A stretch of 64,000 nucleotides of DNA, taken from the NCBI RefSeq assembly GCF_036250065.1, contig NZ_CP109199.1, positions 6,200,001 through 6,264,000 of the forward strand, written 5' to 3'. Numbering within the stretch: position 1 is the first letter of the stretch; every line of letters begins with the position of its first letter. This DNA comes from Micromonospora sp. NBC_01699. GTDB lineage: Bacteria > Actinomycetota > Actinomycetes > Mycobacteriales > Micromonosporaceae. The notes beneath the pieces were generated by a model. The model ran no database searches, was not told the origin of the DNA, and saw nothing but the letters and a program-made list of their open reading frames with translations. Both the position numbers and the translations under genes were made by a program. Of this stretch, positions 2,167 through 41,351 are shown piece by piece.

Positions 2167-2222
2167 GATCTAGGGCAAATGGTGGTGATTGGAGATCAAC
2201 AAGCACGTATTTGCCCTAGATC
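2167..2222. repeat. Dispersed palindromic element, copy A
   Basis: A 14-bp perfect inverted repeat has arms GATCTAGGGCAAAT (2167-2180) and ATTTGCCCTAGATC (2209-2222) around a 28-bp loop containing TGATTGGAGATCAAC. Near-identical copies lie at 34455 and 41296. It sits in the divergent intergenic region 2053-2381 between the MarR and PhoD genes. A pyrimidine tract (CCCCTCCCC type, about 2080-2165) precedes it and a purine tract (GGGGAGGGG type, 2223-2275) follows it. I see no gene in this 329-bp interval. Confidence 0.85.
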
Positions 2223-2381
2223 GACGGGGAGAGGGGCGGGGCACGCGGGGGGAGGGGTAAGGGGGAGGGGAGGGGGATGTCACCTTGTGTTTGGGTGGGG
2301 GACATTGATCTGGTTCGGGGTGTGAACCGGGGGTCGGGAGGGTGCGGGGGTCCGTGTTTTCCGGATCCTGGGGAGCTTTGC

Positions 2382-3962
2382 ATGTCTGTTTCTCGACGTA
2401 CGCTGCTGATCGGTGGGGCGGCGGTTGGTGCCGTCGGGGCCGTGGGCGGGTTGCCTGCGGCTGCCGGGGCGACACCCGCCCGGCCGCTGCGGGAGGACCC
2501 GTTCACGCTCGGGGTGGCCTCCGGGGACCCCGACCACGAGGGCTTCGTGCTCTGGACCCGGCTCGCCCCGCAGCCGCTCGCCGAGGACGGGCTCGGCGGG
2601 ATGCCGGCCCGGACCGTGCCGGTCCGCTGGGAACTCGCCGCCGACGAGCGGTTCCGCCGGGTCGTACGCGCGGGCACCGTGCTCGCCCGCCCCGAATCGG
2701 CGCACAGTGTCCACGTCGAACTCGACGGACTGGCGGCCGGACGCGAATACTTCTACCGCTTCCACGTCGAGCGGTACAGCTCGCCGGTCGGCCGGACCCG
2801 GACCGCCCCGTCGCCGTGGAGCATCGGTGGCGCCCTGTCGATGGCCTTCGTCTCCTGCTCGCAGTACGAGCACGGCTACTTCACCGCGTACAAGCGTCTC
2901 GCCGAGACGGATCCGGACCTGATTCTGCACCTCGGCGACTACCAGTACGAGTACGCGCCGGACACGTACAACATCCCCGGCGGGAACCCGCGCGACCACG
3001 AGGGGCCGGAGACCCGCACGCTGGCCAACTACCGGCAGCGGCACGCCCAGTACAAGACCGACCCCGATCTTCAGGCCGCTCACCTGGTGGCGCCGTGGCT
3101 GGTGGTCTTCGACGACCACGAGGTGGAGAACAACTGGGCCGACGACGTGCCCGAGGCGGCCGACCCGGAGTTCCCGTCCCGGCGGGCGGCGGCGTTCAAG
3201 GCGTACTACGAGAACATGCCGCTGCGGCGTACGTCGATCCCGCGCGGCATCGACATGCAGCTCTACCGGCGGGTGCAGTGGGGGCGGCTGGCCACGTTCC
3301 ACATGCTCGACACCCGGCAGTACCGGGACGACCAGGGCTGCGGCGACGGCTACAAGGACTGCCCGGCGGCGGTCGACCCGGCCCGTTCGATCACCGGCGC
3401 CGCCCAGGAGCGGTGGCTGCTCGACGGGTTCCGCCGCTCGTCGGCCCGCTGGGACATTCTCGGCCAGCAGGTCTTCTTCGCCCAGCGGGACAACGACGCC
3501 GGCCCGGCGACGGTGACCAGCATGGACTCCTGGGACGGGTACGTCGCCTCGCGTGATCGGATCACCCGCGGCTGGCTCGCCGCCGGCGTACGCAACCCGG
3601 TGGTGCTCACCGGCGACGTGCACGCCCACTGGGCCAGCGACCTGAAGCTGGACTACGCCGACCCGACCTCACGTACGGTCGGCACCGAGTTGGTCTGCTC
3701 GTCCATCACGTCGGGCGGGAACGGCGCCGACTCGGTCCCGTCGGACCACCCGATGCTCGGGATCAACCCGCACCTTCGGTTCTACAACAACCAGCGCGGC
3801 TTCGTCCGTACGAAGATCACCAACGACCAGCTCAAGGCCGACTTCGAGGTGCTCCCGTACGTCACCACCCCCGACGCTCCCGCCTACACCCGCGCCTCCT
3901 TCGTCATAGAGGACCGCGTCCCCGGCCTCCACCAGACCTACACCCGCCCCCTCACCCCGTAA
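2382..3962 (+). CDS. phoD: Alkaline phosphatase D family, Tat-exported
   Basis: This is a secreted phosphodiesterase/monoesterase of the PhoD family, releasing phosphate outside the membrane. The ATG at 2382 follows GGGGAG and starts MSVSRRTLLIGGAAVGAVG, a twin-arginine signal peptide, as expected for PhoD, which folds and loads its metals before export. Upstream in-frame codons are rejected because they precede the signal peptide. Metal-ligand motifs are visible: HLGDYQYEY near residue 184, FDDHEVENNWADD near 244 and LTGDVHAHW near 410. The 526-residue length is normal for the family. The gene stands alone, divergent from marR and convergent with the yjbQ-like gene. No Pho box was identified with confidence. 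Confidence 0.92.
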   Translation: MSVSRRTLLIGGAAVGAVGAVGGLPAAAGATPARPLREDPFTLGVASGDPDHEGFVLWTRLAPQPLAEDGLGGMPARTVPVRWELAADERFRRVVRAGTVLARPESAHSVHVELDGLAAGREYFYRFHVERYSSPVGRTRTAPSPWSIGGALSMAFVSCSQYEHGYFTAYKRLAETDPDLILHLGDYQYEYAPDTYNIPGGNPRDHEGPETRTLANYRQRHAQYKTDPDLQAAHLVAPWLVVFDDHEVENNWADDVPEAADPEFPSRRAAAFKAYYENMPLRRTSIPRGIDMQLYRRVQWGRLATFHMLDTRQYRDDQGCGDGYKDCPAAVDPARSITGAAQERWLLDGFRRSSARWDILGQQVFFAQRDNDAGPATVTSMDSWDGYVASRDRITRGWLAAGVRNPVVLTGDVHAHWASDLKLDYADPTSRTVGTELVCSSITSGGNGADSVPSDHPMLGINPHLRFYNNQRGFVRTKITNDQLKADFEVLPYVTTPDAPAYTRASFVIEDRVPGLHQTYTRPLTP

Positions 3963-3989
3963 CCCCTCCCGCCCCGATCCCACTGATCC

Positions 3990-4033
3990 AGAGAAAGAGT
4001 GGTTATCCCGCCCCGGATAACCACTCTTTCTCT
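3990..4033. terminator. Bidirectional terminator hairpin
   Basis: A perfect 19-bp inverted repeat has arms 3990-4008 and 4015-4033 (left arm AGAGAAAGAGTGGTTATCC) and a 6-base loop CGCCCC. It lies between the convergent phoD-like and yjbQ-like genes. C-rich DNA precedes it on each transcribed strand. There is no long T run. Confidence 0.75.
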
Positions 4034-4110
4034 ACAAGAGTGCGGTCTCGGGGTTCTTGTGGTGTGCGGAGTTGTGGGGGCGCGGGGAGCAGGGAGGGGC
4101 GGGGGGGCGG

Positions 4111-4515
4111 TCAGGCGGGGAGGAAGCTGAAGCGGACCTGGCGGGTGGGGTTGTCGCCGTTGGGGTCGACCAGGCAGATGGACTGCCAGGTGCCCAGGGC
4201 CAGTTGGCCGGCGAGGACCGGGATGGTCGCGTACGGGGGCACGAAGGCGGGCATGACGTGATCTCGGCCGTGGCCGGGTGAGCCGTGCCGGTGGCGCCAC
4301 CGGTCGTCGGTCGGCAGCAGGTCGTCCAGGGCGCTGAGCAGGTCGTCATCGGAGCCGGAGCCGGTCTCGATGATCGCCAGCCCGGCGGTGGCGTGCGGTA
4401 CGAAGACGTGCAGCAGGCCGTCGCCCTGGCCGTCGACGAACCGCTGGGCCTCCCGGGTGATGTCCCGGACCACGGGACGGGAGCCGGTCCGGACAGTGAT
4501 GACTTCGGTGCGCAT
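4111..4515 (-). CDS. YjbQ/UPF0047 family protein
   Basis: This is a small beta-rich protein of the YjbQ (UPF0047) family, for which weak thiamine phosphate synthase activity has been reported. Its physiological role is unsettled. The 134-residue length is typical. Family signatures are visible: VFVPHATAGLAIIETGSG near residues 53-70, a His-rich stretch HRHGSPGHGRDHVMP, and the C-terminal block LGTWQSICLVDPNGD. The ATG at 4515 (MRTEVITV) matches the usual family N-terminus, and longer in-frame starts would add an unrelated Arg-rich leader. It is convergent with phoD. Confidence 0.85.
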   Translation of the reverse strand: MRTEVITVRTGSRPVVRDITREAQRFVDGQGDGLLHVFVPHATAGLAIIETGSGSDDDLLSALDDLLPTDDRWRHRHGSPGHGRDHVMPAFVPPYATIPVLAGQLALGTWQSICLVDPNGDNPTRQVRFSFLPA

Positions 4516-4736
4516 GGGGGACAGTCTGCCCGAGCGGTCGGTTACGGTCCGTTCCTCCCGTGAACCGGGTGGTTTCCCGCTCCACCGTCGGTTAGCCGAC
4601 AAACATGTTGCCGCCAAGTTACCGGGCGGTACGTGTGTCGAGTGTCGCGTCTGCGGCCACTAGGCGTGACGGAACCGGGCATGAGGGGGCAGGATGGCGC
4701 CAGAGACTAATCCCACACACAACCAAGGGAACGCCT

Positions 4737-7493
4737 GTGGCCACGGAACGCAAGCGCCCGGTAATCAGCGACGGCCTGCCGAGCCAGCTTCCGGACATCG
4801 ACCCTGAAGAGACCAGCGAATGGGTCGAGTCGCTTGACGGAGTCATCGACGAGCGGGGCGCCAAACGCGCCCGTTATGTCATGCTCCGTCTGCTGGAGCG
4901 CGCGAGAGAGCGCCAGGTCGGGGTACCGCCGCTGACCACCACCGACTACATCAACACCATCCCCCCCGAGCGGGAGCCCTGGTTCCCCGGCGACGAGCAC
5001 GTCGAGCGCCGGATCCGGGCGTACATCCGGTGGAACGCGGCGATGCTCGTGCACCGCGCGCAGCGGCCGGAGATCGGCGTCGGCGGACACATCTCGACCT
5101 ACGCCAGCTCGGCTTCGCTCTACGAGGTGGGCTTCAACCACTTCTTCCGCGGCAAGAACCACCCCGGTGGCGGCGACCACATCTTCTACCAGGGCCACGG
5201 CTCCCCCGGTATGTACGCGCGCGCGTACCTGGAGGGGCGGCTCTCGGAGCACCAGCTCGACGGGTTCCGGCAGGAGTTGTCGCATCCGGGTGGCGGCCTG
5301 CCGTCGTACCCGCACCCGCGGCTGATGCCGGACTTCTGGGAGTTCCCGACCGTCTCCATGGGGCTCGGCGGGATGAACGCCATCTACCAGGCCCGGTTCA
5401 ACCGGTACCTGCACAACCGTGGCATCAAGGACACGTCCGACCAGCACGTGTGGGCGTTCCTCGGCGACGGCGAGATGGACGAGCCGGAGTCGCTCGGCGC
5501 GATCGGCGTGGCCGCCCGCGAGGAGCTGGACAACCTCACCTTCGTGATCAACTGCAACCTCCAGCGGCTGGACGGCCCGGTCCGCGGTAACGGCAAGGTC
5601 ATGCAGGAGCTGGAGTCGTTCTTCCGGGGCGCCGGCTGGAACGTGATCAAGGTTGTCTGGGGCCGGGAGTGGGACCCGCTGCTCGCCGCCGACACCGACG
5701 GCGCGCTGGTCAACCTGATGAACACCACGCCGGACGGCGACTACCAGACGTACAAGGCCGAGTCCGGCGCGTACGTCCGGGAGCACTTCTTCGGTCGCGA
5801 CCAGCGCACCCGCAAGCTCGTCGAGGGCATGAGCGACGACGAGATCTGGAACCTCAAGCGGGGCGGGCACGACTACCGCAAGCTGTACGCGGCGTACAAG
5901 GCGGCGACCGAGCACACCGGTCAGCCGACGGTGATCCTGGCCAAGACGATCAAGGGCTGGACGCTCGGCTCGCACTTCGAGGGCCGTAACGCCACGCACC
6001 AGATGAAGAAGCTGACGCTGGACGACCTGAAGTCATTCCGCGACCGCCTCTACCTGGACATCCCGGACAGCGCGCTGGAGAGCAACCCGTACCTGCCGCC
6101 GTACTACCACCCGGGTGAGTCCTCCGAGGAGCTGGCGTACCTGCGCGAGCGCCGGCAACAGCTCGGTGGTTACCTGCCGTCGCGCCGGACCGCGCACAAG
6201 GCGCTGGCGATTCCCGGCCCGGAGCGGTTCGCCGACGTCAAGCGGGGCTCGGGCAAGCAGAAGATCGCCACCACGATGGCCTTCGTCCGGCTGCTCAAGG
6301 ACGTGATGAAGGACCGCGAGTTCGGCAAGCGGTGGGTGCCGATCATCCCGGACGAGGCCCGTACCTTCGGTATGGACTCGCTCTTCCCGACCCAGAAGAT
6401 CTACTCGCCGCACGGGCAGAAGTACACCTCGGTCGACCGGGAGCTGTTCCTGTCCTACAAGGAGTCGACCAGCGGGCAGATCCTGCACGAGGGGATCAAC
6501 GAGGCCGGTTCGGTGGCCTCGTTCACCGCCGCCGGGTCGGCGTACGCGACCCACGACGAGCCGATGATCCCGCTGTACATCTTCTATTCGATGTTCGGCT
6601 TCCAGCGCACCGGTGACGCGTTCTGGGCCGCCGCCGACCAGATGGCGCGCGGTTTCGTGCTCGGCGCCACGGCCGGACGGACCACGCTCAACGGTGAGGG
6701 TCTCCAGCACGAGGACGGCCACTCGCACCTGATCGCCGCGACCAACCCGGCCGTCGTCGCGTACGACCCGGCGTTCGCGTTCGAGATGGCGCACATCCTG
6801 GAGAACGGCCTGCACCGGATGTACGGCGAGGACCCGGAGAACGTCTTCTACTACCTCACCGTCTACAACGAGCCGATCCTCCAGCCGGCCGAGCCCGCCG
6901 ACGTCGACGTGGAGGGGCTGCTCAAGGGCATCTACCGCTACGCGCCGGCACCGTCGGTCTCGAACTCCGGCGGCGGCGAGACGCCGCGGGCCAACATCCT
7001 GGCCTCGGGTACGGGCGTGCAGTGGGCCCTGAAGGCACAGCAGTTGCTGGCCCAGGACTGGGGTGTGGCCGCCGACGTCTGGTCGGTCACCTCCTGGACC
7101 GAGCTGCGCCGGGACGCGGTGCAGGCCGAGGAGCACAACCTGCTCAACCCGGGCGGCGAGCAGCGGGTGCCGTACATCGCGCAGAAGCTCGCCGACGCGC
7201 CCGGTCCGGTGGTCGCGGTCAGCGACTGGATGCGGGCCGTGCCGGACCTGATCTCGCGGTGGATTCCGGGCGACTACACCTCGCTCGGCACCGACGGGTT
7301 CGGTCTGTCCGACACCCGGCACGCCCTGCGCCGGCACTTCCACGTCGACGCCGAGTCGATCACCGTGGCGGCGCTGCGGCAGCTCGCGCTGCGCAAGGTA
7401 GTACCGGCCGAGGTACCGGCCGAGGCAGCCGCGAAGTACGCGATCGGCGACATCTCGGCGGCTCCGGTCGGCGAGACCGGCGGCGACTCCTGA
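4737..7493 (+). CDS. aceE: Pyruvate dehydrogenase E1 component, homodimeric type
   Basis: This enzyme decarboxylates pyruvate with ThDP and acetylates the lipoyl domain of E2, feeding acetyl-CoA to the TCA cycle and fatty acid synthesis. The GTG at 4737 lies 6 bases after AAGGGA and gives 918 residues, within the 890-930 typical of AceE. It starts [20 protein letters not shown]. The ThDP motif [10 protein letters not shown] is near residue 243, with [14 protein letters not shown] following. The pyrimidine-domain block [16 protein letters not shown], followed by [12 protein letters not shown], is also visible. The gene is monocistronic, which is usual in actinobacteria where aceE is unlinked to E2/E3. 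A second, differently built E1 lies only about 3.3 kb upstream. Confidence 0.97.
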
Positions 7494-7522
7494 TCGGATA
7501 GTCCCGGGTACGCATCGAGCGC

Positions 7523-7566
7523 GGGCCCGTCCACCGGCTGGTTCTCCAGCCCGGTCGGACGGGCCC
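7523..7566. terminator. Terminator hairpin after aceE
   Basis: The inverted repeat GGGCCCGTCC (7523-7532) / GGACGGGCCC (7557-7566) extends inward through an ACCGGCTGG/CCAGCC-type stem to the tetraloop TTCT. It lies between the convergent aceE and the START-like gene and can serve both strands. Confidence 0.75.
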
Positions 7567-7631
7567 CGTGTCGTCTCCCGGCCGGCCGCGACAGGACTGG
7601 CGAACGCACGGGACTGGCGCAGCGCACGGGG

Positions 7632-8075
7632 TCAGCTGACGGTGGCCAGGCCGGTGAGCCGCTCCAGCGAACCCTCCAGGTTGGCGCCGACCCGGCGCAT
7701 GCCCCAGCGCAGCAGGGCGCCGCTGATCGGGCCGGCCGGCCAGCGCACCATGATCAGTCGTACCGCGGTGGCGTCGTCGCCGTCGGGGGCGAGTTCGACG
7801 TACACCTCGGTGCGCGCCTCGGCGCGGGCGCCGGACCCCTCGGTCCGCTCGCGCCAGGCGATCAGCGTCGGCGCCTGGTAGGCGATCACCTCGGCGTCCA
7901 CGGCCGGACCCCGGATCACCCGGACCCGTTGCCGTCGGCCGAACCCCTCACCGGAGAGGACCTCGGCCTGTCTTACCCCAGCGAGCCAGGCCGGCAGCCG
8001 CTCGGCGCGCTGGACCACGTCCCACACCGAGTCGATGTCTGCCGCTACCCGCACGCTGCGTTCAATGAGCATCAT
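7632..8075 (-). CDS. SRPBCC (START-like/polyketide cyclase) family protein
   Basis: This is a small ligand-binding-fold protein of the SRPBCC superfamily. It opens with the standard strand and helix (MMLIERSVRVAADIDSVWDVVQRAERLPAWL) and ends with the long C-terminal helix (LRWGMRRVGANLEGSLERL). The first of two adjacent ATGs (8075) is chosen because GGAGG lies 9 bases upstream. It is 147 residues long, normal for the family. The ligand is unknown, and there is no polyketide context to suggest aromatase or cyclase activity. It is divergent from the GH1 gene. Confidence 0.8.
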   Translation of the reverse strand: MMLIERSVRVAADIDSVWDVVQRAERLPAWLAGVRQAEVLSGEGFGRRQRVRVIRGPAVDAEVIAYQAPTLIAWRERTEGSGARAEARTEVYVELAPDGDDATAVRLIMVRWPAGPISGALLRWGMRRVGANLEGSLERLTGLATVS

Positions 8076-8119
8076 CTCTAGCTGCCTCCATTGACGACAT
8101 CGTACGAACATTCATTGCT

Positions 8120-8129
8120 TATGCGCATA
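8120..8129. promoter_or_regulatory. Possible operator in divergent promoter region
   Basis: The 135-bp gap between the START-like gene and the GH1 gene is AT-richer than its surroundings. It contains the palindrome TATGCGCATA within TTGCTTATGCGCATATTGG. This could be an operator or a promoter element. The assignment rests only on position and symmetry. Confidence 0.3.
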
Positions 8130-8210
8130 TTGGCACCAAACCGGACGCCTATCCAACGACACGCCGAAGGACTACTCTCCGAACAACTTTCGCGTTTCGA
8201 GGAGGGGTGG

Positions 8211-9541
<1,331 letters not shown>

Positions 9542-9545
<4 letters not shown>

Positions 9546-10819: not shown

Positions 10820-10831
10820 GGACGGGCGGGT

Positions 10832-12046: not shown

Positions 12047-12175
12047 CGTGCCTCCCCCGTCCGCTCACGACCACCCCACCGCCCGTTACCGCTGATCAGC
12101 GGCGCGATGACGATAATCGGGCGGTTGGCGAAACCTGGTGGCGGGGGCGTACGGGTGCGCCCGTAGGCTTGGGCC

Positions 12176-30756: not shown

Positions 30757-30770
30757 TCGCACTGAACCGA

Positions 30771-30814: not shown

Positions 30815-30970
30815 CGCTTTTCGCACTATTTGAGGGATCACGACACCACCCGACGGATCGGTACCGGACGCCGACCGGGTATCCGGCACCAACCGGAACG
30901 ACCGGCGGAACCCGCGGCAAACCGCCGGGCCGCAACCCCAGCGGCCGGCCACGGTCACGGGTACGCTTGT

Positions 30971-30982
30971 TACCCGCGGGTA
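30971..30982. promoter_or_regulatory. Perfect 12-bp palindrome, possible operator
   Basis: TACCCGCGGGTA lies 31 bases upstream of the hydrolase start, within TTGTTACCCGCGGGTACGG. Its position suggests an operator near the transcription start. No adjacent regulator gene is seen. Confidence 0.4.
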
Positions 30983-31012
30983 CGGTGACCCTCGGGCGAC
31001 CCGGAGGTGGCC

Positions 31013-32137: not shown

Positions 32138-32292
32138 CCCGTCCGGGTCCGATCAGGTGATCGGCGCGGAACGGCCGGACGGATACCCCGTACCCTCGCT
32201 TCCTGGCAATCCTGCGCGTCCGCGCGCCTGCCCGGCCCGATCGGCCGGGCTCGGCGTCGCGGGCCGCGACCGACCAACCGGGAGTCTGCACG

Positions 32293-34446
32293 TTGACCGA
32301 CCTCACCACCCTGCAACAGGAGATCGCCGCCGAGCAGCGGCATCTCGACCTGGTCTACGCCCGGCTGGCCCAGCTGCGCCGGACCGCCGTCCAGGCTGAG
32401 CAGGAGGGTTACCATCTCGCCCGGGTGGGCAACTTCAGCGCGCTCGTCGAACGGGACGCGATGGTCTTCCACGCCGCCCGGCGCCGGCAGTCCCTCGACG
32501 CCGAACACGAGGGGCTCGTCTTCGGCCGGCTGGACCTGCGCGACCGGCAGGTGCTGCACGTCGGCCGGCTGGGCGTACGGGGCGAGCGGGCCGAGCCGCT
32601 GGTGATCGACTGGCGGGCACCCGCCGCCGCCGCGTTCTACCAGGCGACCGCCGCCGACCCGCGTGGCGTGGTCCGGCGCCGCATGATCCAGTCCGCCAAC
32701 GAGAAGGTCACCCGGATCGAGGACGACCTGCTCGACCCCGGTGCCGCACCGGCCGACATGCGGGTGGTCGGGGACGGGGCGCTGCTCGCCTCGCTGGCCA
32801 AGGCGACCGGCCGGGGCATGCGCGACATCGTCTCCACCATCCAGCGCGAGCAGGACGAGGCGATCCGCTCCCCCGCCGGTGGTGTCACGATCGTCTCCGG
32901 TGGGCCGGGGACCGGCAAGACCGCCGTCGCCCTGCACCGGGCCGCGTACCTGCTCTACTCCGACCGCAACCGGTTCGCCGGGGGCGGCGTACTGGTGGTC
33001 GGGCCGTCCGGGGTCTTCGTCGAGTACATCGCCTCCGTACTGCCCTCGCTCGGCGAGGAGACCGCCACCCTGCACTCGCTCGGCTCACTCTTCCCCGGCG
33101 TGGTCGCCACGCGTACGGACCCGACCGCCATCGCGGCGATCAAGGGCTCGCTGCGGATGCGTCGGGTGCTGGAGCGGGCCACCCACGACACGGTCCCGAA
33201 CGGCCCCACCGAACTGCGCCTGCTCTACCGGGGCGAGCTGCTCCGGCTCGGGGCCGGCGAACTCGACGCGATCCGGGTCCGGGCCCTGCCCCGAGGCGCC
33301 CGGCGCAACGAGGTCCGCCGGGCCGGCATCGACGGGCTGTTCAACGCGCTCTGGACCCAGGCGCAGCGGATGCGCGCCGGCCGGCTGCCGCAGCGGCGCG
33401 ACTTCGAGGGCGAACTGGCCGAACGCGGCGACTTCCGGGACTTCATCCGGGCCTGGTGGCCCCAACTGCACCCGTGGCACGTACTGGGCTGGATGACCCG
33501 GCCGGAGCGGCTGCGCGCGTACGCGTCGGGGATCCTGTCCAACCGGGAGATCCGGGCACTGGGCGATTCGTTGCGGAGCCTGGACGCCGACGGGCCGACG
33601 ATCGCCGACGTCGCCATCCTGGACGAGCTGGACGAGTTGCTCGGCAAGCCGATGCGCGCGGCGAAGCGCCGGCGCGACCCGTACCTGCTCTCCGGCGGCG
33701 TACGCGAGGTCAGCACGTACGCCGACCGGCAGCGCGCGGCACGGACCCCGGTCGAGCGGGACGAGGACTACCGGGAGTACGCCCACGTGGTGGTGGACGA
33801 GTCCCAGGACGTGTCGCCGATGCAGTGGCGGATGATCGGCCGGCGCGGTCGGCTCGCCTCCTGGACCGTGGTCGGCGATCCGGCCCAGACCGCCTGGACC
33901 GGCGAAGCCCACGAGCTGTCCCAGTCCCGGGACAAGGCGCTCGGTCGCCGTCCCCGGCACGAGTTCACCCTCTCCACGAACTATCGCAACCCGGCGGAGA
34001 TCTTCGCGGTGGCCGCCGAGGTGATCCGGGAGGTGGCACCCGATCTTCCGTTGCCGGTCGCGGTGCGTACCACCGGGGTCGAGCCGATCGCGCTGACCGT
34101 ACCGCCGGAAGACTTGGCCGCGACCACGGTGCAGGCGGTGACCGACCTGCTCGCGGAGGTCCAGGGCACGGTCGGGGTGATCACGCCGGTGCCGCGCCGG
34201 GACGAGGTCGCGGCCTGGCTGGAACACCTGGCCGGGCCGCGCCTCCAGGTCGTCACCAGCCTCCAGGCCAAGGGCATGGAGTACGACGGCGTCGCGCTGA
34301 TCGCCCCCACCGAGATCCGTACCGACTCCGAATCCGGCATCCGCACCCTCTACGTAGCCCTCTCCCGAGCCACCCAACGCCTAACCACCCTCGACCCCTC
34401 CCCCTCCCCTCCCCTCCCCTCCCCCTCCCCCTCCCCCCGCCCCTAA
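32293..34446 (+). CDS. HelD-like superfamily 1 helicase / RNA polymerase-associated ATPase
   Basis: This is a UvrD/Rep-like ATPase of the HelD family, which in bacteria frees stalled RNA polymerase. Actinobacterial HelR members can also protect it from rifamycins. The TTG at 32293 follows GGGAG and gives 717 residues. The N-terminus is a coiled coil (LQQEIAAEQRHLDLVYARLAQL), as in HelD's secondary-channel arm. Walker A is SGGPGTGKTAVALHR near residue 203. Walker B is VVVDESQDVSPMQW near 499. The helicase motif FTLSTNYRNPAEIF and the C-terminal SLQAKGMEYDGVALI, then LYVALSRATQRL, are visible. The last 15 residues (PSPSPPLPSPSPSPRP type) come from a C-rich tract adjoining repeat copy B. Confidence 0.9.
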   Translation: MTDLTTLQQEIAAEQRHLDLVYARLAQLRRTAVQAEQEGYHLARVGNFSALVERDAMVFHAARRRQSLDAEHEGLVFGRLDLRDRQVLHVGRLGVRGERAEPLVIDWRAPAAAAFYQATAADPRGVVRRRMIQSANEKVTRIEDDLLDPGAAPADMRVVGDGALLASLAKATGRGMRDIVSTIQREQDEAIRSPAGGVTIVSGGPGTGKTAVALHRAAYLLYSDRNRFAGGGVLVVGPSGVFVEYIASVLPSLGEETATLHSLGSLFPGVVATRTDPTAIAAIKGSLRMRRVLERATHDTVPNGPTELRLLYRGELLRLGAGELDAIRVRALPRGARRNEVRRAGIDGLFNALWTQAQRMRAGRLPQRRDFEGELAERGDFRDFIRAWWPQLHPWHVLGWMTRPERLRAYASGILSNREIRALGDSLRSLDADGPTIADVAILDELDELLGKPMRAAKRRRDPYLLSGGVREVSTYADRQRAARTPVERDEDYREYAHVVVDESQDVSPMQWRMIGRRGRLASWTVVGDPAQTAWTGEAHELSQSRDKALGRRPRHEFTLSTNYRNPAEIFAVAAEVIREVAPDLPLPVAVRTTGVEPIALTVPPEDLAATTVQAVTDLLAEVQGTVGVITPVPRRDEVAAWLEHLAGPRLQVVTSLQAKGMEYDGVALIAPTEIRTDSESGIRTLYVALSRATQRLTTLDPSPSPPLPSPSPSPRP

Positions 34447-34454
34447 CTCGCGTT

Positions 34455-34510
34455 GATCTAGGGCAAATACGTGCTAGTTGATCTCTAACCACACGTATTT
34501 GCCCTAGATC
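34455..34510. repeat. Dispersed palindromic element, copy B
   Basis: Perfect 19-bp arms GATCTAGGGCAAATACGTG (34455-34473) and CACGTATTTGCCCTAGATC (34492-34510) flank an 18-bp loop. The loop is conserved with copies A and C but in the opposite orientation (its complement contains TTAGAGATCAACTAG). It lies between the convergent HelD-like and beta-propeller genes, with a C-tract before it and a G-tract after it. Confidence 0.9.
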
Positions 34511-34557
34511 GGCGAGGGGTTTGGGGCGCGGGGCACGGGGTCAGGGGGTTAAGGGGG

Positions 34558-35550
34558 TCAGGGGCGGGGGATGGAGGTGGTGGTGTAGGGGGTGGTGGGG
34601 GTGGGTGGGGTGGTGAAGCGGCCGTTGGGGAGGTAGAGGCGGTTGGCGTAGGCGGCCACGGTGGTGGGGACGTCGAAGGCTGGTGAGGTGACCTTCTTTA
34701 CCAGGCGGGCGGTGGTACCGGCGCGGTCGAGGTGGTAGACGGCGACCGTGTTCAGGCGGTTCTGTACGACGTAGAGGGTGTGGCCGTCGCGCAGCAGGCC
34801 GTCGCCGTTGGTCAACACCTCGCCGCCGAGGTCGACGGTCCGGGCCACGCCCGTGGTCGGGTCGACCCGGAAGAGCAGGCCGGTGGTGGACTGGACGACC
34901 AACAGGCCCCGCCCGTCCGGGGCGGTCTCGATGCCGTTGGCGTTGATCCCGGCGCCGTAGGCGATGTCACCGGTCAGCGGCAGGGCGACCGCCTCGTCCG
35001 CGTCCGGCAGGCCACCCCGCCGGTCCAGCGGCAGCTTGTACAGCACCGGGTTGGTCGAGTCGGTGAACCAGGCCGCCTCCGGGGTGAGCACCACGTCGTT
35101 GACGAAACTCGGCACGCTGTTGAACCGGTACGTGGTCAGCAGTTCCCCGGTGAACGCATTGAACACCTTGGCGGCGGCACCGCTGGTGCTGTTACCGCCA
35201 CCGACGAAGAGCCGCCCACGCAGGTCGACCTTGAGTCCCTGGGACGGGGTGCCCGAACCGGGGTTGATCACTTCACCCCGCCCGGTGAGCAGGCTGACCC
35301 GGTAGATGGCGCCGGAGACGCGCGAGCCGAAGAAGGCGTACGGCAGGGCCCCGATCGCGATCCCCTCCGGCTGGAACCCGTCCGGCAGCGCGAACGTGGC
35401 GGGGAAGATCGTGCCGGCTCGGGCCGAGGCTGCCGGAGGCGCGACGGCGGCACCGGCCGGGGCAGCTGCGACCGGGGCGGCTGCGGCCAGTACGCCGGTC
35501 AGGGTCAGCACGGCAAACAGGACGGTGGTGGTACGGGGTCGAACTCGCAT
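34558..35550 (-). CDS. Secreted beta-propeller (SMP-30/NHL-like) protein
   Basis: This is an exported protein of 330 residues. A signal peptide (TTTVLFAVLTLTGVLAAAAPVAAA) precedes a repeated six-bladed-propeller-like pattern: FQPEGIAIGALPYAFFGS, VSGAIYRVSLLTGRG, SQGLKVDLRGRLFVGGG, and NGIETAPDGRGLLVVQST, with VNDVVLTPEAAWFTD. This resembles gluconolactonase/SMP-30 or NHL proteins, but no catalytic set can be assigned. The ATG at 35550 follows GAGGAG. The Pro/Thr-rich tail (PPTPTTPYTTTSIPRP) is encoded by the G-tract next to copy B. It is convergent with the HelD-like gene. Confidence 0.8.
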   Translation of the reverse strand: MRVRPRTTTVLFAVLTLTGVLAAAAPVAAAPAGAAVAPPAASARAGTIFPATFALPDGFQPEGIAIGALPYAFFGSRVSGAIYRVSLLTGRGEVINPGSGTPSQGLKVDLRGRLFVGGGNSTSGAAAKVFNAFTGELLTTYRFNSVPSFVNDVVLTPEAAWFTDSTNPVLYKLPLDRRGGLPDADEAVALPLTGDIAYGAGINANGIETAPDGRGLLVVQSTTGLLFRVDPTTGVARTVDLGGEVLTNGDGLLRDGHTLYVVQNRLNTVAVYHLDRAGTTARLVKKVTSPAFDVPTTVAAYANRLYLPNGRFTTPPTPTTPYTTTSIPRP

Positions 35551-35653
35551 CCTCGATCTCCTCCCCCGCCGTCGTGGCGGGCATCGGTTGATGTCGGTGT
35601 GTGCCGGTTCGATGTTGCCCGGCGATCCGCCCGTCCGCTACCGGACAGCCACC

Positions 35654-35736
35654 GAGCGGCACCCGAGCAGTGCCCGAGCGATGCCCGAGCGGTGCCTGAG
35701 CGGCGTCCGAGCGGGTGCCTGAGCGGGTGCCTGAGC
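35654..35736. repeat. Tandem repeat family 1 (11-12 bp)
   Basis: About seven imperfect units of the type GAGCGGTGCCC, period 11-12 bp, lie in the 367-bp divergent region between the beta-propeller gene and the permease. I see no gene in this interval (35551-35917), only three neighbouring tandem repeat families. Confidence 0.75.
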
Positions 35737-35750
35737 GAGCAGGCGCCGCC

Positions 35751-35836
35751 GGCGGAACGCCGGTCCGGGGAGGGGAGAGTGGCGGAACGCCCGTCCCGGC
35801 GGGGAGAGTGGCGGAACGCCGGTCCGGGACGGCACG
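35751..35836. repeat. Tandem repeat family 2 (about 30 bp)
   Basis: Three units begin GGCGGAACGCC at 35751, 35781 and 35810. Units 1 and 2 end in GGGGAGAGT-type sequence. The periods are 30 and 29 bp. Confidence 0.75.
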
Positions 35837-35860
35837 TCCGGTCGTGGCGGACAGGTCGAC

Positions 35861-35915
35861 GATGACGGAGCATGGGCCGGTGACGGAACACGGGGCGATG
35901 ACGGGACACGGACCG
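35861..35915. repeat. Tandem repeat family 3 (17-19 bp) abutting the permease start
   Basis: Three units of the type GATGACGGAACACGGGCCG start at 35861, 35880 and 35897. The array ends two bases before the GTG start of the permease, so it would lie in the translation-initiation region. Confidence 0.7.
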
Positions 35916-35917
35916 AC

Positions 35918-38644
35918 GTGAGCTGGCCGCTGCTGCGCCTGGCCGCGGCCGGGCTGCGGGCCCATGCCGTACGGCTGCTGTTGACCGCTTTCGCGGTGGT
36001 GGTCGGGGTCAGTTTCCTCGCCGGCACGCTGGTCTACGGCGACACCGCTCGGGCCGCCTTCTACGACGACCTGGCCCGCTCGGCCCGGAACGTGGACGTG
36101 GTGGTGGAACCGGCCGAGACCCTGGTGTCGGCCGACACGGTGGCCCGGATCCGGGCGGTCGATGGGGTGGCCGAGGTGGACGGGCGGGTGATCGCCTGGC
36201 TGGGCCTGCTCGACCGGGACGGCCGGCTGCTGACCCAGCAGGGCCACGTCGGGTATGGACTCTCGGTGCCCGGAGTGGCGTCACTCGCGCCGTACGATGT
36301 GGCGGCCGGGCGGCTGCCCCGCACGGCCGGCGAGGTCGCGGTGGACAAGACCACGGTGGCCGGCACCGGGTACGCGCTCGGCGCCCCGGTGACCCTGCTC
36401 GACCAGGCCGGCGCGTCGCACCGGCTGACCCTGGTCGGGGTGCTCGACCTCGGCGTGAACCGGCTCTTCGGTGGCTCCCCGGTGGCCGCCCTGACCGAAC
36501 CCGACCTGACCCGGTTGACCGGCACACAGCGGTACGCGCAGGTGGTGATCCGGGCCGCGCCCGGGGTCGACCCGGAGACATTGGCCGACCGGGTGGCGCA
36601 GGTGACCGGCGATCCACGGCTGGTGGTGTCCACCGGTGACCGGCTTCGGCAGCAGCTGGCCGAGCAGGCCGGCAAGTACGTCAACGGCTTCCTGGCGGTG
36701 CTGATCGGATTCGGGCTGGTCTCGCTGACCGTGTCGGCGTTCGTCATCTACAACACGTTCGCGATCCTGGCCGCCCAGCGCGTACGCGAGCTGAGCCTGC
36801 TGCGCTGTATCGGCGCCTCCCGCCGGCAGGTCGGGATCGCGGTGCTGCTGGAGGCGCTGGCGCTGGGCGTACTGGCGTCGCTGGGCGGGCTGGCGATGAG
36901 CCTGCTGGTCGGCTACGGGCTGATCTGGGGGCGGGAACTGGTCGCCACCGACATCCCGCTGCACGCGCCGGTGGTTCGCTGGCCGACGGTGGCGGTGGCG
37001 ATCGGCTTCGGCACCCTGGTGTCGGTGCTGGCGGCGCTCGTACCGGCGCTGGCGGCGGGGCGGGTGCCGCCGCTGGCCGCGCTGCACGGCAGTGCCACCG
37101 CCGAGCTGCGCGGTTCGACCGGTCGACGCGGACGGGTCCGGCTGCTGATCGCCGCCGGGCTGGCCGGGCTGGGCCTGCTGGCGATCGTGATCGGGGTGCC
37201 GCTGGCCTTTCCGGGGCTGCCGGTGGTGCTCGGCGGCGGCATGATCCTCTTCCTCGGGACGGTGGTGGCGGCGCCGCTGCTGGTTCCGCGCGCGGTCGGC
37301 GTACTGGGTTGGCTGCCGGCCCGGCTGTTCGGACCGGTGGCCCGGCTGGCGGTGGCGAACGCGCGGCGCAACCCGCGCCGGGCCGCCGCGACCACCATGG
37401 CGCTGACCGTCGGGGTGGCGCTGATGTCGATGTTCGCGGTGCTGCTGGGGACCGCCCGGGACCAGACCGGACGGGAGCTGACCGAGAACTTCCCGGTGGA
37501 CTTCGTGCTCGACCGGGCCCGGGTGGACGGCACTCCCGGGGTGACCCCTGGCACGCTGCCGGCGGAGCTGGCCGGCGTACTCCGGGCCGACCCGGCGTTC
37601 GCGACGGTGGCCGAGGTGCGGCTCGCACCGGCACCGGCGGACCCGCAGGTCCGGGTCTGGTCGGTGCCGCCCGAGCAGTTGCGCGGCCCGATCCGGCCGG
37701 AGGTGACCGACGGTGACCTGGCCGCCCTGCGGCCGGGCACGGTGGCGGTGAGCCGCCGGCTGGCCGAGGCCCGCAACATCGGCGTGGGCGACCGGCTCCC
37801 GCTCGGCCTGCCCGACACCCTGACCGGCCCGACCGATCCGGTTGGGCCGACCGATCCGGTTGGCCCAACCGGCCCAACCGAGCCAACCGGCCCAACCGAG
37901 CCAACCGGCCCAACCGAGCCAACCGGCCCAACCGAGCCGACCGGCCCAACCGGCCCGACCGAGCCGACCGGTTCGTCCGGGGGCGACGGTGTGGGGGGCT
38001 CGTTGGTCGTGGTCGCGCTCTACGACGACGCTCCGACCAGCGGTACGGCGCTGGTCGAGTGGAGCCGGTTCACCGCCGCGTACGGTCCGGGCGCGCCGAA
38101 CCAGTTGCTCATCGACCTCGCCCCCGGTGTCGGTACGGCAGCCGGGCGGCAGGCGCTCGACGGGCTGCTGCGGGCGTACCCGGTGGTGCGGTTGAGCAGT
38201 GCGGCAGACCAGGCGAACGCGTTGTCGGCCACGCTGGACGAGCTGCTCGGCATCTTCGCCGCGCTGCTCGGCATGTCGGTGCTGATCGCGCTCTTCGGGA
38301 TCAGCAACACGCTCTCGCTGTCGGTCTTCGAGCGCACCCGGGAGTCGGCCACGCTCCGGGCGCTGGGCCTGTCCCGACGGCAGCTCGGGCGCATGCTGCT
38401 GGTCGAGGCGGCGCTGATCGCGCTGGTCGGCGCGTTGGCCGGGATCGCCCTGGGGGTGGGGGTCGGCTGGACCGCGGCACTCGGGCTGATCAGCAGCTAC
38501 GGGCACGGGCTGCCGGTCGTACCGGTGGGGCAGTTGGCCCTCTGCGCGGGCCTGGCCTGCGGCGCGGCGGTCCTGGCCGGGCTGCTGCCGGCCCGCCGGG
38601 CGAGCCGGGCCCCGATCGTGGCGGCGATGGCGAACGAGGGCTGA
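35918..38644 (+). CDS. FtsX/MacB-type ABC transporter permease, orphan
   Basis: This is a 908-residue ABC3-type permease with two FtsX-like halves. An N-terminal helix ([20 protein letters not shown]) and a large extracytoplasmic domain precede the first three-helix bundle ([20 protein letters not shown], with [19 protein letters not shown]). The second half repeats this, ending in [20 protein letters not shown] with [16 protein letters not shown] and a final [18 protein letters not shown]. Such permeases need a MacB-type ATPase, and none is adjacent. The second external domain carries an 18-bp in-frame repeat. The GTG at 35918 is the start and no good ribosome binding site is visible. The substrate is unknown; lipids or antibiotics are common for the family. 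Confidence 0.88.
37826..37970 (+). repeat. In-frame 18-bp repeat encoding GPTEPT
   Basis: Inside the permease gene, the 18-mer GGCCCAACCGAGCCAACC occurs perfectly at 37871, 37889 and 37907, with a one-base variant at 37925. GPTDPV units (37826-37870) and a shortened GPTGPTEPT unit flank them. Together they encode a Gly-Pro-Thr-rich external loop of about 48 residues. Copy number may vary by slippage. Confidence 0.9.
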
Positions 38645-38700
38645 GCCCTCGCACCCTTCCGGCACCCGGCCGGTTCGACTCGGTGGCACACATTGCGATA

Positions 38701-38712
38701 TCAGCATATGTT
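38701..38712. promoter_or_regulatory. Possible metal-sensor operator before the CDF gene
   Basis: TCAGCATATGTT lies within the AT-rich dyad region GCGATATCAGCATATGTTGG, 37 bp before the exporter's start. ArsR/SmtB-type sensors bind AT-rich dyads at metal exporter genes. The same 12-mer recurs at 56529. No sensor gene is adjacent. Confidence 0.35.
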
Positions 38713-38748
38713 GGGCTATAGCGGTACCGGCTGACGGAGGGTGTGTGC

Positions 38749-39669
38749 GTGGGCACGGGTCATGACCACGGCGCGCAGGCGATGCGCGCCGCCGAGCGGC
38801 ACCGGGGACGGCTCTGGTCCGCCTTCGGGCTGCTCGTCGTTGTCATGATCGTCGAGGCGGTCGCCGCCCTCACCACCGGCTCGCTGGCGCTGCTCTCCGA
38901 CGCCGGGCACATGTTCACCGACGTACTCGGAATCGGCATGGCACTGGCCGCGATCACCGCGACCCGGCACGCCACCGACGACCCGCAGCGGACCTTCGGC
39001 CTCTACCGGCTGGAGGTGCTCGCGGCACTGGCCAACGCCGTGCTGCTGTTCGGCGTCGCGATCTACGTGCTGGTCGAGGCCGCCCGCCGGTTCAGCCAGG
39101 AGCACCCGCCGACCGTGCTGGCCGGGCCGATGCTGGGGGTCGCCATCGTCGGTCTGCTGGCCAACCTGGTCGCCTTCGGGCTGCTGCGCGCCGGGGCACG
39201 GGAGAGCATCAACCTGCGCGGCGCCTACCTGGAGGCGCTTGGCGACACGCTCGGCTCGGCCGGGGTGATCGTCGCCGCGCTGGTGATCGCGAACACCGGC
39301 TGGTGGTGGGCCGACCCGCTGGTCGCGGTCGCGATCGGCCTGTTCATCCTGCCCCGGACCTGGCGGCTGGCCCGAGCCGCGATCCGGATCCTGGTGCAGG
39401 CCGCACCGGAGCACCTCGACGTGCCCACGGTCGCCGCCCGGCTCTGTGCCGTACCCGGTGTCGCCAACGTGCACGACCTGCACGTCTGGACGCTCACCTC
39501 GGGCATGGAGGTCGCCTCGGCGCACCTCACCCTGTCCGCCGGCGCCGAGGTCGGCGCGGTGCTGGCCGCCGCCCGCGGGGCGTTGCACGACGACTTCGAC
39601 ATCGCACACGCCACCCTCCAGGTCGAGCCGGGCAGCGCGACCGAGGGCTGCGGCCCCACCGACTGGTAA
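38749..39669 (+). CDS. Cation diffusion facilitator, CzcD/ZitB type
   Basis: This is a proton-coupled exporter of Zn2+ or similar divalent cations, 306 residues, with six membrane helices and a C-terminal cytoplasmic domain. Metal-site motifs are SLALLSDAGHMFTDVLG in helix 2 and AYLEALGDTLGS in helix 5. RTFGLYRLEVLAALANAV is the family's conserved loop. The cytoplasmic end has VHDLHVWTLTSGMEVASAH. The second GTG (38749) is chosen because GGAGG is 8 bases upstream; the GTG at 38743 is too close. The N-terminus GTGHDHG is slightly His-rich. A small CCCGGCC/GGCCGGG hairpin at 39692-39711 may end its transcript. Confidence 0.92.
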   Translation: MGTGHDHGAQAMRAAERHRGRLWSAFGLLVVVMIVEAVAALTTGSLALLSDAGHMFTDVLGIGMALAAITATRHATDDPQRTFGLYRLEVLAALANAVLLFGVAIYVLVEAARRFSQEHPPTVLAGPMLGVAIVGLLANLVAFGLLRAGARESINLRGAYLEALGDTLGSAGVIVAALVIANTGWWWADPLVAVAIGLFILPRTWRLARAAIRILVQAAPEHLDVPTVAARLCAVPGVANVHDLHVWTLTSGMEVASAHLTLSAGAEVGAVLAAARGALHDDFDIAHATLQVEPGSATEGCGPTDW

Positions 39670-39982
39670 ACCCCATCGGGTACGCCCGCCGCCCGGCCGG
39701 GTACGGCCGGGCACGCCCGTCACCCGCTTCGGTACGGTCGCGGACGGCACGGGTAGGTGGCGCTGCCGGTAGCGCTCCTTACCGGGCACCGGAAGGTGAC
39801 CACTCTTCGCTTACCTTGGCCTTAATTTTTGTCGCCCGACCGGGTGAAATTTTATGGTTATATCCGGCATATCATTTCGATTCACTTTGATCCTCTGACA
39901 AGCGACCACTGTCCGTACTGGAGCCGGCCGGTAGGCTCGGCTCCGGTCATCGCCGGGCGGCGCCCTCCGGCGCCTGTGGTGA

Positions 39983-40100
39983 CCGTCGCCTAATCGCACA
40001 TGCGAGCCGGGGAACCATCGCGTCATTGGGGTGCATCCGCGTCAGCGGTAGGGATCTTCCGTCCCGAACCCGTCAGCTAACCCGGTCGGCGGCTGACGGA
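39983..40100 (+). promoter_or_regulatory. Cyclic di-AMP riboswitch (ydaO-yuaA class)
   Basis: Conserved ydaO-class segments occur in the right order: GAGCCGGGGAACC, TTGGGGTGCATCC, GGTAGGGATCTTCCGTCCCG, and AACCCGTCAGCTAACCCGG. A closing stem forms between CCGTCGCC at about 39983 and GGCGGC at about 40087. In actinobacteria this riboswitch commonly precedes cell-wall hydrolase and resuscitation-factor genes and turns expression off when c-di-AMP binds. The AT-rich stretch 39820-39900 upstream (unusual for this DNA) is the likely promoter. The interval 39670-40114 holds no other gene. Confidence 0.9.
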
Positions 40101-40114
40101 AGGACGTGCACCGA

Positions 40115-41221
40115 ATGCCATTGTTGGCGCCCGTACGACCCCGCCATCCGCGCGCGGTCCGTACCGCGATCGCGATCACCCTCACCCTGTTGGCCGCCTC
40201 GGTCACCCCCACCGCCGCGCTGGCCGCACCCGCCCCCCTCGGCACCGCCCCCCTCGGCACCGCCCCGCTGACCGCCGCGAACGTGCTCGCCGCCGCCCCC
40301 GGCGGCACCGACGACGAGGGCGGCAGCGACAGCCTGCGAGAGCAGCTCGACGTCGCGGCCAAGGGCTACCTCGACGCCCAGGCGGCACTGGACAACTCCA
40401 CCAAGCGGCAGCAGCAGCTCGCCGCGCACCTGGTCACCCTGGAGGCCGAAGTGGTCACCAGGACCCGGACCGTCGGCGAACTGGCCGGCTTGGCGTACCG
40501 CACCGGGCGCCTGGGGCCCCTCACCGCCCTGCTCAACAGCGACTCGCCGGACGGCTTCCTGGACCGTGCGTCCTCCCTCGGCACGGTCGCCGCCAACGAG
40601 GACCGCCAGCTCCGGGACCTGATCGAGGTACGGGACCAGGAGACCCGGGCCAAGGCGGCGATCGACAACGAGATCCGTGAGCAGCGCAAGCAGCTCGACA
40701 TCATGGCCAAGCGCAAGCAGCAGGCCGAACGGGCGCTCGCGCTCGCCGGCAGCGGCGGCTCCAGCCCCGGCGTCACCGCCAGCACCACCTCCCCCACGGC
40801 CAAGCCGGCCCCCCGCAACTCGGACGGGTCGTGGCCGAAGGAGTCGTGCAGCGTCAACGACCCGACCACCACCGGCTGCATCACCCCGCGCACCCTCAAC
40901 GCGATGAACCAGGCCAAGGCGGCCGGCTTCACCCGTTTCGTCTCCTGCTTCCGCAGCGGCGGCTCGGGCGAACACCCGAAGGGCCGGGCCTGCGACTTCG
41001 CGGCGGAGAAGGGCGGCTTCGGCGGAATCGCCACCGGCGGCGACCGGACGTACGGCAACAACCTGGCGGCGTACTTCGTCAAGAACGCCAGCCGCCTCGG
41101 CGTGCTCTACGTGATCTGGTTCAAGCAGATCTGGCTACCCGGCAGCGGCTGGAAGGCGTACAACGGCGGCGGCGACCCCTCCAGCGACCACACCAACCAC
41201 GTCCACCTCTCCATGAACTAA
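40115..41221 (+). CDS. Secreted coiled-coil protein with M15-like C-terminal domain
   Basis: This is an exported 368-residue protein, probably a cell-wall hydrolase or a cell-wall-binding protein. A signal peptide (AIAITLTLLAASVTPTAALAA) precedes a coiled coil of about 130 residues with a NlpC/P60- and RipA-like pattern (LREQLDVAAKGYLDAQAALD). A Ser/Thr/Pro linker follows, then a C-terminal domain with EHPKGRACDF (His287, Asp294) and TNHVHLS. The H-x6-D and H-x-H pattern is like the zinc site of M15/VanY D,D-peptidases. The ATG at 40115 is properly spaced from GGAAGGA; the GTG at 40106 is too close. It is controlled by the c-di-AMP riboswitch just upstream, which fits a wall-remodelling role. 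Confidence 0.85.
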   Translation: MPLLAPVRPRHPRAVRTAIAITLTLLAASVTPTAALAAPAPLGTAPLGTAPLTAANVLAAAPGGTDDEGGSDSLREQLDVAAKGYLDAQAALDNSTKRQQQLAAHLVTLEAEVVTRTRTVGELAGLAYRTGRLGPLTALLNSDSPDGFLDRASSLGTVAANEDRQLRDLIEVRDQETRAKAAIDNEIREQRKQLDIMAKRKQQAERALALAGSGGSSPGVTASTTSPTAKPAPRNSDGSWPKESCSVNDPTTTGCITPRTLNAMNQAKAAGFTRFVSCFRSGGSGEHPKGRACDFAAEKGGFGGIATGGDRTYGNNLAAYFVKNASRLGVLYVIWFKQIWLPGSGWKAYNGGGDPSSDHTNHVHLSMN

Positions 41222-41295
41222 CCCCGCCCCTCCCCCTCCCCTCTCCCCCTCTCCCCCTCCCCTCGCGTGCCCCCGCGCCCGCCCCCGGGCGCGTC

Positions 41296-41351
41296 GATCT
41301 AGGGCAAATACGTGTGATTAGAGATCAAGTAACCCCCATTCGCCCTAGATC
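41296..41351. repeat. Dispersed palindromic element, copy C
   Basis: The left arm GATCTAGGGCAAATACGTG (41296-41314) matches copy B exactly. The right arm ATTCGCCCTAGATC (41338-41351) has one change. The loop TGATTAGAGATCAAG matches copy A. It lies between convergent genes, with a C-tract (41222-41280) and a G-tract (41358-41400) on either side. Confidence 0.88.

Follow-up and report, generated by a model that had tools for sequence, protein, structure and literature searches.

To our knowledge, the RAYT transposases are the sole dedicated partners of repetitive extragenic palindromes (REPs). Here we describe a family of dispersed 56-bp palindromes, F1, which in Micromonospora sp. NBC_01699 and its relatives accompanies a gene for a protein of another kind, with an AbiEi-like N-terminal and a Vsr/DUF559-like C-terminal region. 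The family came to notice in a stretch of 64,000 nucleotides (the window; positions 6,200,001-6,264,000 of the source genome G000, a single contig of 8,280,328 bases), in which a first-pass annotation had pointed out three copies. A partnership between the palindromes and the nuclease gene is well supported by sequence comparison, and we favour, with a probability of roughly 0.6, the reading that F1 is a REPIN-like palindrome population with a dedicated AbiEi-nuclease partner, by which it would be bound, dispersed or homogenised.

The closest described system is that of REPINs and RAYTs. Like F1, REPINs consist of inverted constant repeats around a variable interior, occur in tens to hundreds of extragenic copies and bracket a vertically inherited partner gene; both kinds of repeat are fewer where that gene is absent, as an excerpt of one study reports for E. 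coli (PMC8049555). The two differ in the partner, which for F1 is AbiEi-like and Vsr/DUF559-like instead of a Y1 enzyme of the HUH type, and in the elements, which in the F1 class measure 56-70 bp and change dialect genome-wide at fixed sites. We do not file F1 under REPIN-RAYT because the Y1 enzyme, the defining feature of that system, was not found: the REP-associated transposase that the first-pass annotation had proposed to look for (PF01797) is without a match in G000 and in two relatives, G001 and G002.

CGTC-tagged REPs, too, are palindromes outside genes, placed between convergent or unidirectional neighbours; according to an excerpt of PMC3733652, no transposase is known for them. F1 is likewise flanked by CGTC or CGTT. 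The same excerpt gives them stems of 8-9 bp and places them in Proteobacteria, Chlorobi, Bacteroidetes, Spirochaetes and Thermotogae, not in Actinobacteria (PMC3733652). Whereas CGTC is an unpaired tag in these REPs, it is part of the palindrome in F1. With AbiE systems F1 shares the AbiEi-like N-terminal region of its partner and a half-site geometry close to that of the paired 23-bp inverted repeats which, in the available part of PMC7319586, AbiEi and its relative Rv2827c bind. In contrast to AbiE, the F1 partner is fused to a nuclease-like domain and the sites are dispersed at 3′ ends rather than placed at one promoter.

The DNA uptake sequences of Neisseriaceae and Pasteurellaceae are species-specific dialects of a repeated motif, and resemble F1 in this respect; we know of no nuclease bracketed by them. 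They differ from F1 in being short words of far higher copy number that are tied to competence. A further likeness is that uptake signal sequences form inverted pairs at gene 3′ ends, where they act as terminators according to the accessible text of PMC5217627.

Among the matches listed by a literature search, with subscription papers and preprints outside its scope, such a palindrome-nuclease pair is undescribed. The system therefore appears to be new in the sense that neither its repeats nor its enzyme seem homologous to any described repeat-enzyme pair that we found; defined by its logic alone, it looks like a second, unrelated instance of the REP-transposase partnership.

Results

F1 in the window and in the source genome

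The three palindromes proposed for the window are present at their predicted positions, each 56 bp long:

2167..2222, minus strand: F1 palindrome copy A; modules GGTGG / ACGTG, centre GATCTC on the minus strand
34455..34510, plus strand: F1 palindrome copy B; ACGTG on both arms
41296..41351, minus strand: F1 palindrome copy C; modules ACGTG / GGGGG

The centre GATCTC bears out the proposal that copy B is inverted relative to A and C. The common 19-bp arm stood in part: it occurs in four of the six arms (four times in the window, with none expected from 100 shuffles), and among the three copies only B carries GATCTAGGGCAAATACGTG on both sides, the divergent arms being GATCTAGGGCAAATGGTGG on the left of copy A and GATCTAGGGCGAATGGGGG, read inward, on the right of copy C. 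Genes were called with a home-made codon-based gene caller. By these calls copy B lies between convergent genes at 32293-34446 (plus strand) and 34558-35511 (minus strand), and copy C is also flanked by convergent genes. Copy A (RNA fold z = -11.6) lies between a minus-strand open reading frame (ORF) at 1519-2001 and a plus-strand ORF starting at 2514, and is assigned no 3′-end position because these called neighbours diverge.

The whole of the 8.28-Mb G000 genome holds 92 F1 copies, above the limit of about ten that the first-pass annotation had named. A count of exact 9-bp ends with spacers of 20-50 allowed gives 90 copies, at least 50 of which (all those listed) are 56 bp long; since 89 of the 91 copies extracted at a fixed length of 56 bp have exact ends, at most one of the 90 has another length. 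The ends read GATCTAGGGC. Variation is nearly absent from the terminal nine bases of either side (89-91 of 91 copies) and entirely absent from positions 13, 14 and 19. A quasi-palindrome, GA-TC-TC, forms the centre; G26 occurs in 88 and C31 in 85 of the 91 copies, and the A-T-C at positions 27-29 is identical in all 91, so that the loop is indeed conserved and not random. Positions 11-18 form a module that begins with AAAT, ATAT or GAAT and continues with a second part, which in the 182 half-sites is ACGTG (95), GGTGG (54), GGGGG (17) or ACAGG (9) in the main; the eight bases inside the ends constitute a genome-specific "dialect".

Left and right modules vary independently (identical in 28 of 91 copies, 26.0 expected), and pairing covariation rises above permutation solely at positions -3, -2, 11 and 12. 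An RNA or single-stranded DNA hairpin was rejected as the constrained form: modules 15-18 lack pairing covariation, though those four positions covary. The palindrome is frequently extended outward by CGTC/CGTT...GACG/AACG, the flanking tetranucleotides usually pairing with each other, and no unpaired GTAG tag was seen by eye. Direct repeats of 2 bp flush with the element number 17 in the 91 copies, as against 8.3 after permutation.

A bracketed gene for an AbiEi-like and nuclease-like protein

The closest F1 pair in G000 lies 1.3 kb apart (the next 5.8 kb) and brackets one gene; F1 likewise stands on either side of that gene's orthologs in G001, M. phaseoli and Micromonospora U21. About 1.3 pairs as close as this are expected by chance among 91 copies, so that the single pair proves nothing alone. 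The encoded partner protein of about 310 amino acids has an AbiEi-like N-terminus (PADLOC AbiEi matches at E 4e-12 and 9e-13; Pfam AbiEi_4 at 2.5e-4, below its cut-off) and a C-terminus resembling the MTES_1575/DUF559 (Vsr-like) nucleases, with PF18741 at E 7e-7 to 6e-6 and PF04480 down to 1.8e-4 in three partner proteins, all but one of these matches falling below curated cut-offs. E205, D238, E249, D251, H255 and D264 are invariant in 25 proteins of the partner family. A PDB sequence search returned two matches, the best at E 0.19. In G001 the last codons and the stop of the partner gene lie inside the palindrome, whose first bases encode R-S-R-A-N; among the 45 proteins compared, nine more from Micromonosporaceae have RSR tails, those of L311 and L316 being just loosely alike.

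F1 was surveyed in 354 genomes of the family at a fixed length of 56 bp, allowing one mismatch at most across the 20 fixed bases of the two 10-bp ends. Orthologs of the partner scoring above 340 bits are present in exactly 11 of these genomes (G001, G000, G191, G197, G288, G300, G248, G168, G128, G338 and G206; the next match scores 295 bits). Thus 11 of the 13 genomes with at least nine F1 copies carry the F1-type ortholog and none of the 341 others does (Fisher p 3e-19, ignoring phylogeny). F1 stands on both sides of nine of the 11 orthologs; one locus has one F1 and a degenerate copy, and one has a GATCAAGGGC variant. The F1-rich genomes lacking an ortholog are G132 and G002. A deoD-like gene adjoins the partner gene in 10 of the 11 genomes, and at this deoD locus G002 has matching DNA on both sides, with 6.8 kb of other sequence replacing the gene and both F1 copies. 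G002 is thus without the partner cassette yet retains 13 F1 copies.

Each paralog with its own palindrome

A profile search of G000 found four full-length paralogs and two fragments, and the full-length paralogs are bracketed by F1, F2, F4 and F3, respectively, one family each. F2 had been found by comparing the 3′ sites of asd genes, and F3 and F4 at window or G002 sites, all ahead of any look at the paralogs. Other palindromes (GATCTTGCA, GATCATGGAGTT, GATCATGCAG, GATCAAGGGC and GATCAAGGA) bracket the weaker homologs or, at contig ends, adjoin them, and the partner family as a whole matches 133 of 296 class-level genomes at E <=1e-30. As a separate observation, a fragment at G000 5850254-5850463 (L338) matches the nuclease end only, has an F3-type palindrome about 300 bp downstream and is possibly a decayed partner gene.

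On a quick tree of 45 proteins (44 labelled, L341 being unlabelled) the palindrome core needs 14 changes, the minimum being 13, whereas shuffled palindrome labels need 29.9 on average and in 0 of 200 shuffles as few as 14; near-copies inflate this clustering, and the F3 and F4 partners sit on long branches. Because the loci outside the family were picked for a visible palindrome pair, the tree tests which palindrome fits which protein, and not how frequent the pairing is. Its frequency was assessed from the flanks: paired palindromes sharing at least six 9-mers, a cut chosen after the results were seen, flank 24 of the 33 loci from Micromonosporaceae and 12 of the 29 from the class level; the asd controls gave 0 of 30 and the Y1 controls 1 of 9. 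With any shared 9-mer the counts become 28/34 and 15/29, with 3/30 for asd and 1/9 for Y1. In this sample L334, a duplicate of L305, was dropped (leaving 33) and L241 skipped as too short; the class-level loci include two from Micromonosporaceae, L340 (the same gene as L332) and L341, and the pairings at L357 and L365 are weak by eye.

A prediction drawn from the flanks in genus g30 (same order, other family), that GAGCAGAC palindromes should be dispersed there, held: they occur in 14 of 17 g30 genomes, in up to 63 copies, nearly all listed ones being 56 bp long, while none of 11 other genomes has any. G450 has two different paralogs, each with its own type of module in the bracketing palindromes:

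G450 2409110-2409952: paralog between palindromes at 2408976 and 2409984
G450 3735101-3735940: paralog bracketed by the pair of L351

Old sites and apparently rewritten sequences

Flanking-protein comparison places 11 of the 13 G002 copies at sites orthologous to G000 copies. Of the 23 F1 places in G001, 20 were compared, and 12 of these loci (13 copies) fall at G000 F1 sites, 11 by genes on both sides and L290 via deoD and the bracketed gene; L284 lies elsewhere by gene order, is not the counterpart of L055, and was excluded. The site of window copy C is among those shared, its G001 counterpart (L292) being occupied by a copy of another dialect. We used only site sharing among G000, G001 and G002 as evidence and left cross-genus sharing aside because, by our own estimate, about 6% of convergent sites are occupied and chance overlap is possible. 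The shared sites disfavour recent transposition bursts. Of the earlier proposal of a mobile or REP-like repeat, or else a protein-binding site, the REP-like part holds in that the element is a dispersed extragenic palindrome. There are strong indications of a cognate DNA-binding protein. Recent mobility is at odds with the age of the orthologous sites.

Orthologous copies in G000 and G002 resemble each other (28.0 of 34 variable positions alike, 24.8 after permutation, p 5e-5) and keep their orientation in 10 of 11 pairs. In one pair, L051 (G000 4039964) and L106 (G002 6758054), the best match is obtained after flipping one copy (49 of 56 positions, 38 unflipped), which suggests an in-situ inversion. 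Pairs from G000 and G001, in contrast, resemble each other no more than mismatched ones do (19.5 versus 19.2 of 34, p 0.25; all-pairs baseline 19.6), share orientation in 8 of 13 cases (L284 left out), and have a module known in G000 in only 1 of 26 G001 half-sites, while the genes beside the shared sites are 74-99% identical. The copies at fixed sites therefore follow the dialect of their own genome.

At the G002 counterparts of 18 G000 F1 sites, F1 is found at two, a degenerate F1 at one and palindromes of other families (F3, F4) at two; two are not interpretable, and 11 are without a palindrome of these families, at least two of them having short ordinary hairpins. At L072, L078, L081 and L084 F1 is present in G001 and not in G002.

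Distribution, dialects and placement

F1 occurs in 20 of the 354 family genomes and 7 of 44 genera, with 9-92 copies in 13 genomes and 1-3 in seven, and a scan of 84,980 species found 93 F1 stretches, of which the 80 listed are all from Micromonosporaceae. The idea that palindromes are confined to these 20 genomes was rejected: it is true of F1 alone, and other genomes bear other families. G000 and G002 use the dialect ACGTG/GGTGG and G001 uses CCGCG and CGTCG; elsewhere, CGTCG types occur in Micromonospora and GAGTGG and GTCGCG types in metagenome-assembled genomes (MAGs). Carriage by phages or plasmids was also set aside. A search of IMG/VR found no F1 copy; 18 IMG/VR stretches fit a pattern for relatives of the partner protein, with none confirmed, nor was any confirmed in phage records, and plasmid records gave only distant and partial matches, in seven records.

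The first-pass annotation had asked for the copies to be mapped relative to gene ends: a stop codon lies within 150 bp of 77 of the 91 G000 copies, compared with 47% of random intergenic points, at a median distance of 56 bp (78 copies with a flanking 3′ end). Convergent genes enclose 42 of 91 copies and 8 of 52 control-sequence gaps (gaps of at least 60 bp). To the left of the copies the flanks are rich in C, to the right in G, and control 3′ ends are less skewed (with only four element-bearing sides in the control regions). The hairpin is strong as RNA, yet its 3′ flank is G-rich and T-poor, and the U-tract of an intrinsic terminator is absent.

Other palindromes and side observations

Two further palindromes in the window belong to families that bracket paralogs elsewhere in G000:

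3976..4047, no strand assigned: F3-family palindrome with AGAGAAAGAGTGGTTATCC arms and fold z -9.2; the family also brackets the paralog at G000 2279462
57752..57818, no strand assigned: F4-family palindrome with GTTGATCATGAAGTTAGCGAC arms; the family also brackets the paralog at G000 7848216

A comparison of the sites 3′ of asd in 30 genomes found F1 in three (G002, G191, G300) and a 67-bp GATCTTGCA palindrome (F2) in two genomes of genus g4; the rest had either an unrelated hairpin, long or short, or no detected one. Genus g4 includes M. phaseoli, whose partner protein is that of G248. F2 is present in 135 of the 354 genomes, with 60 copies in G000 and 57 in G002. The same intergenic position in a different genus (L224, G017) holds a 64-bp palindrome with GTGCAGTTTCGGGGAAA arms.

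Directly upstream of the ORF at 40115-41221, which has F1 copy C at its 3′ end, lies a c-di-AMP (ydaO/yuaA) riboswitch (39977-40107, plus strand, 92.2 bits). An Rfam scan of the window at gathering cut-offs found nothing besides it, and a Pfam search with the ORF at E 0.001 gave no match.

The long C-rich left and G-rich right tract at nearly every copy means that C-rich, G-poor transcripts enter from both sides, a composition resembling that of Rho utilisation. The 3.0-5.3 Mb region of G000 is poor in F1 (7 copies, 25.3 expected), in a stretch picked after viewing the positions. A nearest neighbour of four copies (L043, L083, L087 and L094, at about 2.43, 7.56, 7.75 and 8.27 Mb of G000) is an IS4-type transposase gene; its product of 452 amino acids is 100% identical among them, as if the IS favoured palindrome flanks.

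Discussion

How could an AbiEi-nuclease protein maintain a palindrome population? The mechanism that we infer from its domains would have the N-terminal AbiEi-like winged helix bind the half-sites and read their middle module, and the C-terminal Vsr/DUF559-like PD-(D/E)XK domain nick or cut at the palindrome; such an act seems likely because the nuclease-type residues are conserved. One protein would occupy each half of the 56-bp palindrome, which fits two 27-bp halves with a two-base centre and independently varying modules. Through this activity the palindromes may have been copied around the chromosome in the past, and resident copies may still be homogenised, being rewritten to the current dialect and sometimes flipped, while after gene loss the copies would decay. 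Copying or conversion would explain the dispersal, the shared dialects, the flip and the decay after loss, and on balance the AbiEi-nuclease proteins probably do disperse or homogenise their palindromes. Copies would survive at safe 3′ ends between convergent genes, where they may double as bidirectional hairpins or terminators. A more ambitious version, which we regard as plausible though short of even odds, is that of an independent actinobacterial class in which the AbiEi-nuclease reads a middle-module code and rewrites palindromes at fixed sites by homing or gene conversion, so that hundreds of gene 3′ ends would follow the dialect of a few vertically inherited nucleases.

Several observations weigh against the reading of F1 as a population with a dedicated partner. 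No target-site duplication, looked for as abutting direct repeats of 3-10 bp, is present in any of the 91 copies, and the partner gene is not mobile now, since it lies beside deoD in 10 of 11 genomes. The base-pair covariation at positions -3, -2, 11 and 12 is something that a pure double-strand operator need not show. The Pfam matches to nuclease and AbiEi families mostly fall under curated cut-offs. At 17 of 29 class-level and 9 of 33 family loci, some of them at contig ends, the flanks are below the pairing cut, and 3 of the 17 g30 genomes lack the predicted palindrome. In G132, a 94% complete MAG, 35 F1 copies occur without an ortholog at E 1e-30. One same-orientation pair of the 11 between G000 and G002, L057/L103, shows no resemblance, and the case for loss in G002 is built on dialect and on the sites that G000 shares with G001, rather than on a species tree.

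The palindromes might instead be dispersed AbiEi-type operators or decoys that are kept because they benefit the host, by autoregulation, by titrating a toxic nuclease, or in defence or self-marking; nothing would be copied, and ordinary selection at each site would fit the dialect to the protein. Half-sites that vary independently and modules 15-18 without pairing covariation are as expected for one protein per half-site, and the AbiEi-like N-terminus, the 23-bp inverted repeat pairs reported for AbiEi and Rv2827c (in the same excerpt of PMC7319586), the long-term conservation of the sites and the steady position of the gene next to deoD all agree with this account. We nevertheless think it unlikely, though a serious contender: some 92 de novo origins of a 56-bp site would be implausible without copying, the lost site memory and the apparent in-place flip suggest sequence replacement, and most copies stand at 3′ ends rather than at promoters.

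Placement near stop codons and between convergent genes, strong RNA hairpins and the C-rich left and G-rich right flanks would suit bidirectional terminators or insulators whose sequence identity is secondary. As the primary function this is improbable, given the absent U-tract, the conserved loops and modules, the bracketed nuclease gene, the 11 of 18 G002 counterpart sites without a palindrome of these families and the ordinary hairpins that occupy the asd site in several genomes; termination may be a secondary role of F1. A simple terminator family was rejected as a full account on the conserved loops, the lacking U-tract and the dedicated gene.

Mobilisation of a classical REP or REPIN by a RAYT, which the dispersed extragenic palindromes, inverted doublet architecture and cognate repeats around a gene might bring to mind, is very improbable, and refuted for G000 unless a RAYT escapes Pfam detection, with PF01797 unmatched in G000, G001, G002 and in 21 of 24 element-bearing genomes (matches in 3 of 24, and in 7 of 39 tested overall), elements of 56-70 bp as against 20-40 bp for REP units, and no GTAG tag seen. 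Equally hard to credit is a coincidental pairing of ordinary genes lying between repeated terminators, for although chance could yield the one 1.3-kb pair, palindromes of different families bracket members of a single protein family in many genomes, while the asd controls give 0 of 30.

Few bacterial repeats are as common as REP-like palindromes. If F1 is indeed a palindrome population with a dedicated AbiEi-nuclease partner, an unrelated enzyme with one palindrome family per paralog would mean that palindrome populations have evolved more than once, and a role would be suggested for proteins annotated as 'DUF559 domain-containing'. With the natural knock-out in G002 and the dialect switch between G001 and G000, the persistence of the repeats and the copying, editing or binding by the enzyme become testable.

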